Part shown: positions 964 through 5,483 of the stretch, piece after piece
How the letters are laid out: each line of letters opens with the position of its first letter
Numbering within the stretch: position 1 is the stretch's first letter
Assembly (NCBI GenBank): GCA_001796415.1
Contig: MGML01000149.1
Location: 1-5,483 of the forward strand
Length of the DNA: 5,483 nucleotides
Direction: 5' to 3'
From: Chloroflexi bacterium RBG_13_46_14
Lineage (GTDB): Bacteria; Chloroflexota; Dehalococcoidia; Dehalococcoidales; UBA2162
Program-made: the position numbers and the translations under genes
The notes under the pieces: model-generated
The model's input: the letters and a program-made list of their open reading frames with translations, nothing else
What the model was told of the DNA's origin: nothing
Database searches by the model: none

Positions 964-3024
964 ATGTTCAAATTTCTCCGACCTAAAGCAACACTCACCG
1001 ATGGTGAGATCAAATCAGGCTTACGCTGGGTTACTATTGAGGGTGCCGTATCGATGGGCTTCTTCAGCATTACCACCAGCGGGATTCTTGTTGCTTATGC
1101 GCTGGCATTGGGGGCTGAAAACTTCCATATAGGTGTACTCGCCGCGATACCCTTCATCATGCAGATTATCCAGATACCGACTATCTGGCTGATCGAATCG
1201 GTCAGGCGGCGAAAAATTATATCCGTCCTTTCATGGTTTTTTGCCCAGTTATGCTGGTTTCCAATCGCATTAATTCCCTTTTTCATGCCGATACCCGGAA
1301 AGGCAGCGATTACCCTGGTTATCGGGATAATGGCTTTCAGGGGTATTCTTAGCGCCATATGCAACGCTTCCTGGAACAGCTGGCAGCGTGACCTGATACC
1401 CCAAAACATACTCGGCAGATTCTTTTCAAGACGCATGGCTTACGCTACTGCCTTCGCTGTAGTTTTCAGCGTTGGTTCTGCTATATTTATCGATTACTGG
1501 AGAAACTCGTCCTTACCGGAGGACACCGCTTTCGGTTACAGCTACGCCATTCTCTTCGGAGCATTATTCCTTGGTCTCGGCAGCGTTTTCTTTATGTCAT
1601 TGATTCCCGAACCACTTATGCAGCCGGTCACCGGTCCCCAACCCTCCATAAAGGAACGTTTAACAGCTCCGCTTCGCGACCCAAACTTCAAGCGCCTGCT
1701 GCAATTTCTGTTTTACTGGAGTTTCGCGTCCAACCTGGCAATCCCTTTTTTCGCAGCTCATATGCTTCAAACGCTGGGGATGCCCGTTGTATGGGTAATC
1801 GGTCTCAGTATCCTGAGTCAGGTTTTCAATATACTGTTTCTTCGTGTATGGGGGCCATTAGCCGACCGTTTCAGCAACAAGGTAGTCCTTTCTATCGGCA
1901 TTTCACTTTATCTCATGGTAATGGGAGGATGGATATTTGTCACCTTACCCGACAGGTACTTTTTAACCATACCCCTGCTGATAATACTGCACATTTTCGC
2001 CGGGATTGCCAGCGCAGCGGTATCGTTCACCGTGGGTACTATCGGTCTGAAACTGTCTCCCAAAGGTGAAGCGACATCATATCTTGCCACCGCTTCTCTC
2101 GCTACCAATATCGGCGCCGGACTTGGTCCGATAGCAGGGGGATTTCTCGCTGATTTCTTCTCCACCCGGCAACTCAATTTTACCTTTACCTGGATCGATC
2201 CTGCCAGCACTATTAACCTGCCGTTTCTCAGCATAATCGGTCGCGATTTTCTTTTCGGGCTGGCTTTCTTACTGGGAATATTAACCCTCGGGATGCTTGC
2301 CAGAATTCGTGAAGAAGGTGACGTCGGGAGAGAAGTAATCCTGGAATCGCTCTACGAGCCTATAAAGGATATTTCCAGGCCGATGAGTACCGTCCCCGGT
2401 TTCACTTTCCTGGCCAATTTTCCTTTCGGTTTTTTCAAGCGCGTACCTCCCGGTCTTGATGTAGCCCTGGGAGTAACGATTTACCAGATAGCAGAAATGG
2501 CCCGGGCTACGGCTTTAGCGGCTACCCGGGGACGAAGTATCACGCAGAGAATGGCCTCAGACCTGGGTAAAAATATTACACGTTACGCCAGTTCACGCAG
2601 GAAAATCAGGGAACACGGTATGGAGATCGTCCAGCACACCGTTCGCGGGGCGATGCATGTTGTCGATGATAATCCGGTAAATGTGGATAAGCTTATAGAA
2701 CAGGTTGTTGAAGGTGTTCTCACTGCTTCGAATGAAGCCGGGATGGACTCCCGTGATTCGCTTATGGGTGCCAGCCAGGGAGTTGTACAGGGCGCAGTGG
2801 AAACCGGAATGGATGTGACTGAAGCGGTAAAGATAACCCTTAAAACCGTAAAGAAAGCATCTGAAGGAATTGGTATGTCCGAAGAAGAGGCAGCCTCTGT
2901 CGTCGGAGAGGGTGTCATTCTTGCAGCAGAACCTCTTGGTTCCGAGGTGGTAGCCGAAGTGGTCGAAGCGATACCGGAGGAAAACCTTCCGCTGGCACCC
3001 GATAAGCCGGATGAAAAGTCTTAG
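964..3024 (+). CDS. MFS-type membrane transporter with long C-terminal repeat extension
   Basis: Encodes 686 residues. About 12 membrane helices can be read, near residues 22-51, 55-80, 84-106, 114-136, 157-178, 194-216, 245-266, 277-296, 308-327, 334-357, 372-397 and 428-448. A long loop after helix 6 (217-243) splits the two six-helix halves. A motif-A-like loop GPLADRF (297-303) follows helix 8, and a glycine-rich LGPIAGG (387-393) lies in helix 11. Both are typical of the major facilitator superfamily of inner-membrane secondary transporters. The substrate cannot be told. Usual family length is about 400-450, so about 235 residues are extra. These comprise a linker (449-500), a helical segment with a basic cluster (SRRKIREHG) and four to five 22-residue repeats from residue 571, ending in an acidic tail. 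The ATG at 964 is chosen because nothing in frame lies usefully upstream. Its Shine-Dalgarno is poor (GAGGA at 941-945 is too far, GCGG at 957-960 too close), suggesting weak or leader-independent initiation. It stands between two gaps and is probably its own transcription unit. Confidence 0.85.
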   Translation: MFKFLRPKATLTDGEIKSGLRWVTIEGAVSMGFFSITTSGILVAYALALGAENFHIGVLAAIPFIMQIIQIPTIWLIESVRRRKIISVLSWFFAQLCWFPIALIPFFMPIPGKAAITLVIGIMAFRGILSAICNASWNSWQRDLIPQNILGRFFSRRMAYATAFAVVFSVGSAIFIDYWRNSSLPEDTAFGYSYAILFGALFLGLGSVFFMSLIPEPLMQPVTGPQPSIKERLTAPLRDPNFKRLLQFLFYWSFASNLAIPFFAAHMLQTLGMPVVWVIGLSILSQVFNILFLRVWGPLADRFSNKVVLSIGISLYLMVMGGWIFVTLPDRYFLTIPLLIILHIFAGIASAAVSFTVGTIGLKLSPKGEATSYLATASLATNIGAGLGPIAGGFLADFFSTRQLNFTFTWIDPASTINLPFLSIIGRDFLFGLAFLLGILTLGMLARIREEGDVGREVILESLYEPIKDISRPMSTVPGFTFLANFPFGFFKRVPPGLDVALGVTIYQIAEMARATALAATRGRSITQRMASDLGKNITRYASSRRKIREHGMEIVQHTVRGAMHVVDDNPVNVDKLIEQVVEGVLTASNEAGMDSRDSLMGASQGVVQGAVETGMDVTEAVKITLKTVKKASEGIGMSEEEAASVVGEGVILAAEPLGSEVVAEVVEAIPEENLPLAPDKPDEKS
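2674..3003 (+). repeat. Tandem 22-residue repeats in the C-terminal tail of the MFS protein
   Basis: The protein repeats with an exact 22-residue pitch. Units begin at P571 (PVN), G593 (GMD), G615 (GMD), G637 (GMS) and G659 (GSE, incomplete). Each holds a stretch with small and branched residues (GVLTA, GVVQGAV, TVKKA, GVILAAE) typical of an amphipathic helix, then a glycine turn. A weaker unit may precede at G552 (GME, 19 residues before P571). The units are divergent in DNA sequence, so the repeat is old and selected at protein level rather than a recent slippage product. Function is unknown; a helical oligomerisation or membrane-surface module is possible. Confidence 0.75.
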
Positions 3025-3201: not shown

Positions 3202-3435
3202 ATGACTGAAATAGTAGTTGACTGCACTGGTGAAACATGCCCGGTACCTCTGGTTGAAACGCGAAAAGCCCTGCGAAAAGCCGCTGACGGCGATATTATA
3301 GAGGTTATTGGAACCCATCCGTCCTCAAAGAAAGAAATCCCGATGGCTGTGAAAGCTCTGGGGCTGAAACTCCTGGGTGTCGAAGAATCCGGTGATATAT
3401 GGAAAATCAGGATCAAGAAGGAAAAGGAGAATTAA
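3202..3435 (+). CDS. tusA: TusA/SirA family sulfur carrier protein
   Basis: Encodes 77 residues, matching the usual ~75-80 of this family. TusA-type proteins are small cytosolic two-layer alpha/beta proteins that carry sulfur as a persulfide on the first cysteine of a CPxP motif. They hand it to DsrE/TusD-type proteins or to biosynthetic enzymes. Here the motif is C13-P14-V15-P16, at the N-terminal end of the first helix and preceded by the usual beta strand (EIVVDCTGET). A second cysteine, C8, sits five residues before it, as in some YedF-like members. The later GDIIEV strand and the THPSSKKEIPMA segment correspond to the family's central strand and second helix. It is the first gene of the operon, with only two bases between its stop and the next start. 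In such a context it most likely exchanges sulfur with the DsrE-like neighbour. Whether it receives sulfur from a desulfurase is doubtful given the changed IscS-like protein downstream. Family assignment is firm; the partner is inferred. Confidence 0.9.
   Translation: MTEIVVDCTGETCPVPLVETRKALRKAADGDIIEVIGTHPSSKKEIPMAVKALGLKLLGVEESGDIWKIRIKKEKEN
3424..3429 (+). promoter_or_regulatory. Ribosome binding site that sets the dsrE-like start
   Basis: AAGGAG lies inside the last codons of tusA, eight bases before the ATG at 3438. An earlier in-frame ATG at 3399 lies inside tusA, lacks such a site, and would add 13 charged residues with no family match. The 3438 start is therefore preferred. Confidence 0.75.
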
Positions 3436-3437
3436 AG

Positions 3438-3866
3438 ATGGCTGAGCAGCAGGATAAAGCCACTATTATCGTTCACAGCGGCGATATGGATAAACTCTAC
3501 AGCGCTCTCATCGTCGGAAACGGCGCCCTGGCAATGGGTATGGATGTGTCTCTTTTTTTCACCTTCTGGGGACTCCTGCGACTGAAAAAGGGCGGACTGG
3601 AGAAAGGTCCGCTTTCGAAAATGCACATGTTTGGCCTGGGAAAACTGATGGTAAAGATGAAAATGAAGAAACAGAACGTAGCTTCTCTCGAAAGAATGAT
3701 GCAGGATTTCAAAGAACTTGGAGGGAAGATACTTGCCTGCGATATGACAATGGATATTATGGGTATTAAACCTGAAGATCTTCGTCAGGACCTGATAGGG
3801 GATTACTGTGGAGTGGGGACGTACCTGGACGAAGCGAGAAATTCGAAAATTACCCTCTTTATCTAG
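3438..3866 (+). CDS. DsrE/DsrF-like family protein (DsrE2-type)
   Basis: Encodes 142 residues from the ATG at 3438. It resembles the DsrE2-type branch (PF13686/COG2210-like) of the DsrE/F/H fold. Features in order are a first strand ATIIVHSGDMDKL (8-20), an N-G-A-L-A-M-G-M helix end, the characteristic hydrophobic DVSLFFTFWGLL (36-47), a Met/Lys-rich basic segment (69-78, KLMVKMKMKK), a helix with ELGGKILAC, and the conserved cysteine segment A-C101-D-M-T-M-D-I-M-G-I. A second cysteine, C124, lies in DYCGVGTYL near the C-terminus. C101 is at the place where family members hold the sulfur-binding cysteine. Known relatives bind and transfer sulfur with TusA, often in sulfur-oxidation or tRNA-thiolation settings. 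Old database names call some members 'peroxiredoxin family', which is misleading. It lies between tusA and the iscS-like gene with near-overlapping junctions, implying co-translation and a shared sulfur relay. The hydrophobic stretch is too short and family-typical to claim membrane insertion. Confidence 0.85.
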   Translation: MAEQQDKATIIVHSGDMDKLYSALIVGNGALAMGMDVSLFFTFWGLLRLKKGGLEKGPLSKMHMFGLGKLMVKMKMKKQNVASLERMMQDFKELGGKILACDMTMDIMGIKPEDLRQDLIGDYCGVGTYLDEARNSKITLFI

Positions 3867-3875: not shown

Positions 3876-3880
3876 AAATG

Positions 3881-5050
3881 ATGCCTAATGACAATCAGGT
3901 TTACATGGATAACTCGGCGGCGACCCGGCTCGATGAAAAAGTACTGGACGCGATGAAACCCTACTTTTTCGAGCAGTACGCGGTAGCTACATCCGAGTTT
4001 GCGTACTCACAGGGAATCGAGGTCAGTGAAGCACTTGAAGGCGCCAGGACCGTTCTCGTTGGAAAGCTGGGTGGTACGTCCGAAGAGTTTATATTTACAT
4101 CGGGAAGCACCGAGTCATCGAACATTGCCCTGAAAGGTATGGCAATGACCGTAAAAAAGGGCAAACACCTGATCATATCAAAAATCGAAGACTTCCCGGT
4201 ACTGAACAGCGCCAAAGCCCTGGAAAAACAGGGATTTACAGTCACTTATCTCGACGTAGATGGTGATGGATTCATAGATCTTAAAGCACTGAAAAAGGCC
4301 ATCACGGATGAAACATTCCTTGTTTCTATCCAGCATGCCAACCAGGAGATCGGCACGATACAGGATATCGAAGCAATCGGAAAAATCTGCAAGGAAAAGG
4401 GAGTGACTTTTCATACCGACGCCACCCATACCTTCGGCAGGGTACCTATCGACGTAAAGCAAATACCGGTAGACCTGATAACGGTATCGGCGCATACTAT
4501 TCATGGGCCTAAAGGAATAGGCGGACTGTATATCCGCAAGGGGACGAAGCTGGGAAAATGGATGGATGGCGGATTCCAGGAATTCGACCTTCGTGCCGGA
4601 CTTGAGAATATAACCGGCGCTATCGGCTTCGCCAGGGCTATTGAGCTGATAACGGACGAGGAAACGGCAAAACTGCGGGAGATGCGCGACCATATCATCG
4701 ACCGGATTCTTTCCGAAATACCCGATGTAACATTGAACGGCCACCGCGAAAAAAGGCTGCCGCAGAATGCCAACATCTCATTTCACTATATCGAGGGAGA
4801 ATCGATCACCCTGCACCTCGATATGCACGGTTACGCCGTAAGTACCGGCTCGGCCTGTTTCAGTCGGTCGCTTGAAGGAAGTCACGTAATCTTCGGCATC
4901 GGCGGCGACCACGAGAGAGCGCACGGCTCAATACGGTTCACTTTCGGAAGGTATAATACTATCGATGAAGTAGATGGTATTGTGGACAGGCTGGCTGGGA
5001 TAGTTGACGAGTTAAGAAGTATCAGCCCGCTTGTCCCTGATAAGGACTAA
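3881..5050 (+). CDS. iscS: IscS/NifS-like protein lacking the PLP-binding lysine
   Basis: Encodes 389 residues (390 if the ATG at 3878 is used) and aligns along its whole length with E. coli IscS, recalled from memory, nearly residue for residue. Normal family members are PLP-dependent dimers that take sulfur from cysteine as a persulfide and pass it to IscU or TusA. Retained: YMDNSA near the start, TSGSTES with the phosphate-site T77, D180 (HTDAT), S203 and H205, HGPKGIGGLY, the catalytic-loop cysteine C326 in STGSACFSRSLE, and the C-terminal IRFTFGR. Changed relative to IscS: the PLP lysine K206 is T206 (SAHT, codon ACT at 4496-4498), H104 is D104 (EDF for EHH/EHK), N155 is Q155, Q183 is H183, and T243 (reaching into the other subunit) is L241. 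The frame is intact, so this is not decay by stop or frameshift. Normal desulfurase activity is not expected. A role as an IscU partner, persulfide acceptor or cysteine ligand for a nascent cluster is inference. The next gene, iscU, begins 14 bases after the stop. Family call firm; symbol denotes homology only. Confidence 0.88.
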   Translation: MPNDNQVYMDNSAATRLDEKVLDAMKPYFFEQYAVATSEFAYSQGIEVSEALEGARTVLVGKLGGTSEEFIFTSGSTESSNIALKGMAMTVKKGKHLIISKIEDFPVLNSAKALEKQGFTVTYLDVDGDGFIDLKALKKAITDETFLVSIQHANQEIGTIQDIEAIGKICKEKGVTFHTDATHTFGRVPIDVKQIPVDLITVSAHTIHGPKGIGGLYIRKGTKLGKWMDGGFQEFDLRAGLENITGAIGFARAIELITDEETAKLREMRDHIIDRILSEIPDVTLNGHREKRLPQNANISFHYIEGESITLHLDMHGYAVSTGSACFSRSLEGSHVIFGIGGDHERAHGSIRFTFGRYNTIDEVDGIVDRLAGIVDELRSISPLVPDKD

Positions 5051-5064
5051 TAGGAGGAATAACA

Positions 5065-5483
5065 ATGAAATCACCATACAGTGAAACGGTTCTGGAACAT
5101 TTTCGGCATCCGCATAACGTGGGAAAAATCGAAGACGCCGACGGCAAAGCCCAGGAGGGAAGCCCCGCCTGCGGTGATATGGTAGCAGTATATATAGACG
5201 TAGATGAAAAGACGAAGGTCATTGAGGATATCAAGTTCGAATCATACGGATGCGCCTCGAATATAGCCACGGGTTCGATCATAACCGACCTGGCAAAGGG
5301 AAAGACCATCGATGAAGCAAAGAAAATAACCTGGAAAAACGCGGCGGATGCTCTCGGCGGGCTTCCCAAGATAAAGGCCCACTGCTCGGTGCTGGCCATC
5401 GAGGGATTGCGGTCGGCGATAGAAAACTATGAAGAGCGGCACGGCCTGGTCAAGGACAGGAAACCAACCAACATGGAAACGGT
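5065..5483 (+). CDS. iscU: IscU/NifU N-terminal-type Fe-S cluster assembly scaffold (3' end cut)
   Basis: The frame is open from the ATG at 5065 to the window end, 139 complete codons. AGGAGG at 5052-5057, seven bases upstream, supports the start. IscU-type proteins are cytosolic scaffolds on which [2Fe-2S] clusters are built from sulfur and iron. The three cluster cysteines are present: C36 in GSPACGD (with the conserved D38), C63 in SYGCASNIA, and C107 in AHCSVLA with H106 before it. The N-terminal YSETVLEHFRHPHNVG is typical. The HscA chaperone-binding motif LPPVK of E. coli IscU (99-103) reads LPKIK (100-104), so the standard Hsc chaperone contact may be absent or different, as in many non-proteobacterial scaffolds. 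E. coli IscU has 128 residues. This protein already exceeds that with a charged tail (KDRKPTN), so little is probably missing, although fusion to a further domain as in NifU cannot be excluded. It is the fourth gene of the operon and the natural partner of the IscS-like protein. Confidence 0.9.
   Translation, partial: MKSPYSETVLEHFRHPHNVGKIEDADGKAQEGSPACGDMVAVYIDVDEKTKVIEDIKFESYGCASNIATGSIITDLAKGKTIDEAKKITWKNAADALGGLPKIKAHCSVLAIEGLRSAIENYEERHGLVKDRKPTNMET

Follow-up and report, generated by a model that had tools for sequence, protein, structure and literature searches.

A family of IscS homologues without the PLP-binding lysine, encoded with TusA, DsrE and IscU in bacteria and archaea

The window analysed here, a stretch of 5,483 nucleotides from Chloroflexi bacterium RBG_13_46_14 (contig MGML01000149.1), encodes an IscS/NifS-like protein in which threonine occupies the place of the lysine that binds pyridoxal phosphate (PLP). 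This protein, referred to as IscS*, belongs to a family, here called T-type, that is found in both bacteria and archaea. A strong operon rule ties the loss of the lysine to genes for the sulfur carriers TusA and DsrE, both in the T-type and in a second lysine-less clade, the D-type, to which Archaeoglobus fulgidus IscS2 belongs. The chances are about even that T-type IscS acts as a PLP-free partner of IscU, whose loop cysteine C327 would take persulfide from TusA/DsrE and serve Fe-S assembly on an IscU extended by a PF01883 domain. The genes of the window are as follows.

2-799: incomplete gene at the window start for a protein like class II fructose-bisphosphate aldolase (PF01116, 33.8 bits)
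964-3024: MFS transporter of 686 aa, upstream of tusA, with a long C-terminal extension past the MFS domain
3202..3435, + strand: TusA-like sulfurtransferase of 77 aa with a CPxP cysteine (PF01206, 82.0 bits against a cut-off of 28.6)
3438..3866, + strand: DsrE2-like sulfur carrier (PF13686, 123 bits; PF02635, 32.2 bits)
3878..5050, + strand: T-type IscS (IscS*) of 390 aa, an IscS/NifS fold without the PLP lysine (PF00266, class V aminotransferase fold, 238.7 bits against a cut-off of 21.5)
5065..5483, + strand: IscU scaffold, incomplete at the window end (NifU_N, 143.8 bits)

The order tusA-dsrE-iscS-iscU proposed in the initial annotation is borne out by Pfam profiles, which matched all four genes in the window, and the gaps between them are 2, 11 and 14 bases. 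The dsrE reading frame is open from 3399; its likely start is the ATG at 3438, 2 bases past the tusA stop. Against the NCBIfam model SulfCarrDsrE2 the DsrE2-like protein scores 70.6 bits, below the cut-off of 210. Family alignments show the cysteine of TusA retained in 69/70 members and that of DsrE in 74/75, and an arginine stands eight residues past the TusA cysteine in 70/70, as Arg27 follows Cys19 in E. coli. The nearest genome locus, L001 from a Dehalococcoidia bacterium, has all six genes in identical order and an IscS* that is 92% identical; the MFS transporter at 964-3024 is conserved there. Clustering of the neighbours of 80 T-type loci gave no constant gene beyond the four, the next cluster reaching 14/80. 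A gene of cluster 16, a putative fdhD (formate dehydrogenase sulfurtransferase), lies near the cassette in 4/80 loci, including L027:9912-10700.

Residues 204-213 of the frame at 3878-5050 read SAHTIHGPKG, where S-x-H-K is usual. The two positions on which the analysis turns are as follows.

4496..4498, + strand: codon ACT for T207, which replaces the PLP lysine, Lys206 of E. coli IscS
4856..4858, + strand: codon for C327, the persulfide cysteine in the loop STGSACFS

The initial annotation had numbered these residues T206 and C326, which is correct for a start at the second ATG (3881); with the first ATG as residue 1 they become T207 and C327, as used here. Its main claim, the absence of the PLP lysine at codon ACT, extends to the relatives. 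Among the nearest proteins (best 120 of 7930 matches) the lysine column holds Thr in 119 and Met in one, and in 80 genome loci it holds Thr in 79 and Ala in one. The loci are the best 80 of 124 confirmed stretches and were retrieved with the peptide patterns VATSEFAY and QHANQEIG, the lysine site lying outside both. The catalytic-loop cysteine, also said to be kept, is C in 120/120 of the same best matches and in 80/80 loci. Because nearly all relatives share the threonine, a read error, already discounted in the initial annotation, and a pseudogene are ruled out. Gene decay and an artefact of sequencing or assembly were accordingly rejected and have next to no probability: the same Thr also occurs in named isolates, e.g. 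Anaerobium acetethylicum and Methanolobus, and 188 of the 390 columns are near-invariant (at least 118/120 among the best 120 of 7930 matches), which speaks against a degenerate gene. Either K102 or K212 as a substitute lysine was likewise rejected, both positions varying across the T-type family.

The predicted fold of IscS* matches those of E. coli IscS and A. fulgidus IscS, with a pLDDT of 79.6 overall and poor values at residues 35-45, 231-241 and 325-340. By sequence the closest solved structure is A. fulgidus IscS2 (PDB 4EB5, 4EB7 and 4HVK; D199K mutant 4R5F). IscS* falls below the cut-offs of the NCBIfam equivalogs for NifS (447.5 vs 530.75) and IscS (371.3 vs 643.2), and A. fulgidus IscS2 likewise falls below both.

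Without the lysine no internal aldimine is expected from established PLP enzymology, and T-type IscS, judged by its residues, should no longer desulfurate cysteine. Other positions of the pocket have changed as well. His104, Asn155 and Gln183 of E. coli IscS are presumably residues around the cofactor, and these three and Thr243 are replaced in the window as follows.

4190..4192, + strand: codon for D105, which replaces His104
4343..4345, + strand: codon for Q156, which replaces Asn155
4427..4429, + strand: codon for H184, which replaces Gln183
4601..4603, + strand: codon for L242, which replaces Thr243

The His104 column holds D in 79/80 T-type sequences, against H in 68/68 lysine-bearing and 40/40 D-type sequences. 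The Asn155 column is Q in 80/80 T-type vs N in 68/68 lysine-bearing, and the Gln183 column H in 80/80 vs Q in 68/68. At Thr243, which is T in all 68 lysine-bearing sequences, the T-type is mostly hydrophobic (L in 58/80) and the D-type has T in 36/40 and S in 4/40. As the replacements are mostly invariant (79/80, 80/80 and 80/80 in the first three columns), the pocket has been remodelled rather than left to drift, and by these columns it appears to depart further from the lysine-bearing enzymes than the D-type pocket does. Two further marks set the T-type apart. The residue after the loop cysteine is F in 80/80, S or T being commonest in the lysine-bearing and D-type groups, and the Glu49 column is E in 75/80 T-type, 22/68 lysine-bearing and 7/40 D-type sequences.

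These columns bear on the possibility that PLP is still bound non-covalently and that desulfuration or another PLP reaction persists to some extent, perhaps through a lysine such as K227. K227 is invariant in the T-type (80/80); at this column most of the 68 lysine-bearing homologues have P (38) or S (14). D181 (Asp180) is retained in 80/80 and Thr78 (Thr76) in 75/80, and a published figure of the A. fulgidus structure 4EB5 includes PLP despite Asp in place of lysine (PMC9769115). Against such activity stand the replacement of H104, N155, Q183 and mostly T243, the first and last of which the D-type keeps (H104 in 40/40, T or S at 243), and the report that A. fulgidus IscS is inactive (PMC7585200). 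On balance residual PLP activity seems quite improbable, the least probable of the functional readings weighed here.

In a tree with 38 T-type rows (the window and 37 of the 80 loci), 18 of 120 D-type rows and 35 lysine-bearing rows, the T-type forms one clade (SH-aLRT 100) and the D-type a separate one (SH-aLRT 100). The suggestion of a group distinct from the acidic-residue A. fulgidus type is thus upheld in the free tree; that it would be purely bacterial is not, archaea such as Methanosarcinaceae and Heimdallarchaeota also lying inside the T-type clade. Its bacteria belong to Chloroflexota, Thermodesulfobacteriota, Bacillota, Atribacterota and others, and its archaea to Methanosarcinaceae, Methanofastidiosum (Methanofastidiosia), Heimdallarchaeota, Thermoplasmata and others, lineages which we take to be anaerobic. 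Many hosts are metagenome assemblies; isolates include Anaerobium acetethylicum and several Methanolobus. An identity of the T-type with the A. fulgidus type was rejected, the clades being separate and differing at the lysine and pocket columns. The lysine column of the D-type is D in 39 and E in one of 40 sequences, and among the 120 nearest proteins listed for A. fulgidus IscS2 it is D in 119 and K in one, which is probably the engineered variant in PDB 4r5f. The A. fulgidus precedent cited in the initial annotation therefore stands as a lysine-less IscS with an acidic residue, and fails as a single oddity, since it belongs to a large clade that lies mostly beside TusA and/or DsrE. The free tree places lysine-bearing sequences between the T and D clades. 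A joint T+D tree is not rejected and has a higher likelihood than the free tree (p-AU 0.746), so that one shared lysine loss and two separate ones are both compatible with the trees.

In the genomes sampled the T-type clade is rare. It was found in 5/201 sampled Chloroflexota genomes (the seed included; two of the five have Leu) and in 2/199 sampled Bacillota genomes, both already among the 80 loci. By our own count 63/80 T-type genomes hold a paralogue of the IscS/NifS kind that scores 230 bits or more; 6/80 have only weaker relatives and 11/80 no other match at E 1e-10, where some of the missing paralogues may reflect incomplete assemblies. All 35 paralogues read from T-type genomes keep K. 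At L007, L014 and L027 a lysine-bearing iscS lies a few kb from the T-type cassette. Several Chloroflexota loci have other residues at the lysine column. Two more divergent T-type relatives carry Leu: L237 (ITAHLIHGPKG), with TusA downstream of IscU, and L239 (LSTELVHGPKG), with neither TusA nor DsrE. At L247:1653-2846 (- strand) a Gln copy (SANQFYGPPG) lies close to a lysine-bearing copy, with IscU nearby and neither TusA nor DsrE in the neighbourhood; its branch is long and lies closest to lysine-bearing proteins, and it may represent a further lysine loss.

For the operon rule, the residue at the lysine column was compared with the neighbouring genes in 233, later 273, fetched loci. Each protein was counted once and needed 1.4 kb or more of upstream DNA, a condition that removed 18 proteins of the K, 7 of the T and 3 of the D type; a carrier gene was scored if it shared the strand and lay no more than 3 kb away, or as far as the fetched DNA reached. 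Under this scoring TusA or DsrE accompanies 110/115 lysine-less loci, Archaeoglobus D-type included, and 0/97 lysine-bearing loci. By residue the counts are T 72/74, D 35/36, A 1/1, E 1/1, L 1/2 and Q 0/1, and for loci flanked on each side by 2.5 kb or more they are K 0/83, T 55/57 and D 8/8. IscU adjoins 65/97 lysine-bearing, 72/74 T-type and 36/36 D-type genes; as none of the 65 lysine-bearing loci with IscU has a carrier gene, better-preserved operons alone do not explain the association. Where TusA is present, it lies upstream in 68/71 T-type and 33/33 D-type loci.

The profiles used for TusA and DsrE were rebuilt from matches around lysine-less genes and could therefore favour such loci, for which reason the curated PF01206 was run on 50 whole genomes. 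TusA was found within 20 kb on the contig in 0/46 lysine-bearing loci (checked by eye), 36/46 of the genomes with those loci having TusA elsewhere, and beside the lysine-less locus in 4/4 genomes chosen for such a locus. This control for TusA is free of the training bias, and the DsrE counts rest on the rebuilt profile; in D- and E-type loci 3 TusA and 4 DsrE proteins were confirmed by Pfam. The lysine-bearing set comes from T-type genomes (27), Halobacteriota (34), Chloroflexota (16) and Bacillota (20), and exceptions are therefore possible in other phyla. Since relatives share neighbours, the association counts correspond to between one and three independent comparisons: a 94-row tree gives 1 independent pair on well-supported branches and 3 on all branches.

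Few loci depart from the pattern. The T-type loci L058 and L070 have neither TusA nor DsrE within 3 kb, nor does the D-type locus L171, with 1.4 kb of upstream DNA. DsrE occurs without TusA at D-type L174 and L167 and T-type L034, and TusA without DsrE at T-type L236. At L027 the lysine-bearing iscS is just downstream of the T cassette, with TusA 3.3 kb off and past the 3-kb limit, and L152, the sole lysine-bearing locus with TusA on the opposite strand, is a fragment beside a D-type cassette. The A. fulgidus-type (SSND) genes L144-L175, from Halobacteriota, mostly have TusA and/or DsrE next to them. Two lysine-less copies are present in A. fulgidus itself, one adjoining TusA and the other with DsrE only within 3 kb and TusA about 6 kb upstream.

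The IscU of the T-type cassette is distinctive as well. Its relatives are about 211 aa long (68 aligned), and 3/3 full-length relatives tested consist of NifU_N and a C-terminal PF01883 (FeS_assembly_P, MIP18/DUF59-like). By our own profile the extension is present at 71/74 T-type loci, unlike the D-type (0/36), and at 1/97 lysine-bearing loci, the sole case being the K copy of L027 that adjoins a T cassette. The IscU of L001 carries the domain; the window ends inside IscU, before it. Neither this fusion nor the remodelled pocket had been part of the initial annotation.

Taken together, the observations suggest how IscS* may act. TusA/DsrE carriers from the same operon would load persulfide sulfur onto C327, C327 would pass it to IscU-PF01883 or help to ligate it there, and IscU-PF01883 would build an Fe-S cluster from the relayed sulfur, whose first donor might be sulfide, polysulfide or thiosulfate. 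We infer this path, from TusA/DsrE through IscS* to IscU with an Fe-S cluster as product, together with the loss of all remaining PLP chemistry in IscS*. In the E. coli complex, TusA Cys19 lies about 4 Å from IscS Cys328 (PMC2854127), and that face of IscS can therefore exchange sulfur. The central IscS-TusA salt bridge of E. coli uses IscS Glu49 (PMC2854127); its retention would fit TusA docking in the T-type and does not extend to the D-type. An E. coli IscS dimer can, moreover, carry TusA and IscU together (PMC11302665). Some points count against the relay. Sequence gives no direction of sulfur flow, and Arg353, equivalent to E. coli Arg354 and presumably the position binding the substrate carboxylate, is still R in 80/80 T-type sequences (0/40 in the D-type).

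In the opposite proposal, another donor loads C327 and sulfur leaves through TusA/DsrE for tRNA thiolation, molybdenum-cofactor sulfuration or a similar use. TusA and DsrE homologues make up a thiolation relay in E. coli. The fdhD-like gene lies near 4/80 T-type loci, and E. coli sulfur passes from IscS to TusA (PMC2854127). Without PLP, however, IscS* should not generate persulfide itself, and the constant operon partner is IscU (72/74 T-type), with no other constant neighbour in the clustering. Outward flow is accordingly regarded as unlikely.

The main rival to the relay is a role for C327 as ligand and nothing more. IscS* would dock IscU and provide C327 as the fourth ligand of a nascent [2Fe-2S] cluster, free sulfide would supply the sulfur, and TusA/DsrE would have a different task, or one that runs in parallel. 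A. fulgidus IscS, which also lacks the lysine, is reported to have no desulfurase activity owing to its Lys-to-Asp change, and a ligand role was suggested for it (PMC7585200); C327 is compatible with the same pure ligand role. When A. fulgidus IscS is bound to the IscU variant D35A, its Cys321 is a cluster ligand (PMC9769115), and H2S can supply IscU in E. coli without iscS (PMC13015791). In T-type IscU the cluster ligands and the aspartate are intact (C36, D38, C63 and C107, each in 68/68 aligned). This role leaves unexplained why TusA/DsrE are found at 110/115 lysine-less vs 0/97 lysine-bearing loci, and it is considered possible but clearly less probable than the relay.

Several known systems can be compared with the cassette. 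Methanosarcina acetivorans IscS1 (MA0808), whose partner IscU1 (MA0807) has a mass of 24.2 kDa, lacks the catalytic lysine and has the loop STGSACFS (PMC7585200). It shares this loop with the T-type, the F after the cysteine being a T-type mark, and by this motif very likely belongs to the same family, here in an archaeon, unlike the bacterial operon of the window. In the parts of the source available, iscS1-iscU1 is said to cluster with four genes of no assigned function, neither the residue in place of the lysine nor any connection to TusA/DsrE is named, and expression in E. coli gave inclusion bodies (PMC7585200). Two of these four genes, we infer, are tusA and dsrE. A. fulgidus IscS2 resembles the T-type in lacking the lysine and in belonging to a clade beside IscU and TusA and/or DsrE, and differs from it in having Asp rather than Thr, in keeping His104 and Thr/Ser243 and in losing Arg354. 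E. coli IscS (with TusA in 3LVJ, with IscU in 3LVL) differs in being an active PLP enzyme with Lys206 and an outward sulfur flow, and no tusA was seen beside it in the stretch read, which covers iscS and the genes downstream. Among the minimal Fe-S systems, MIS is described with a cysteine desulfurase and SMS with sulfide as sulfur source (PMC12192291). SMS is minimal like the IscS* cassette, but SufBC-like rather than IscSU.

Lysine loss in A. fulgidus IscS and M. acetivorans IscS1 has thus already been published (PMC7585200). A search of open-licence full-text literature found nothing linking lysine loss to TusA/DsrE and no description of the IscU-PF01883 fusion. As far as that literature shows, the following are new: a T-type family shared by bacteria and archaea, the rebuilding of its pocket, the fusion of PF01883 to IscU and, for both lysine-less clades, the link between lysine loss and TusA/DsrE. 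What had been two scattered archaeal oddities becomes a pattern that reaches bacteria.

The finding touches the question of how Fe-S clusters are supplied with sulfur without cysteine in strict anaerobes living in sulfide. For Methanococcus, the factors steering sulfide to the Fe-S machinery are described as unknown (PMC7585200). A lysine-less IscS tied by its operon to persulfide carriers offers a concrete, testable route of four genes, and suggests that Fe-S clusters in these microbes are built from a sulfur source other than cysteine. More broadly, and with a likelihood put somewhat short of even, anaerobic bacteria and archaea may share a self-contained, cysteine- and PLP-independent Fe-S cassette in which inorganic persulfide sulfur from TusA/DsrE feeds a dead-desulfurase IscS that serves IscU-MIP18/DUF59 as relay and docking hub; the T- and D-types would have come to this design or inherited it, and the missing lysine would mark a reversal of the E. 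coli IscS-TusA flow. Proteins labelled "cysteine desulfurase" in databases may, in such cases, be no such enzyme.
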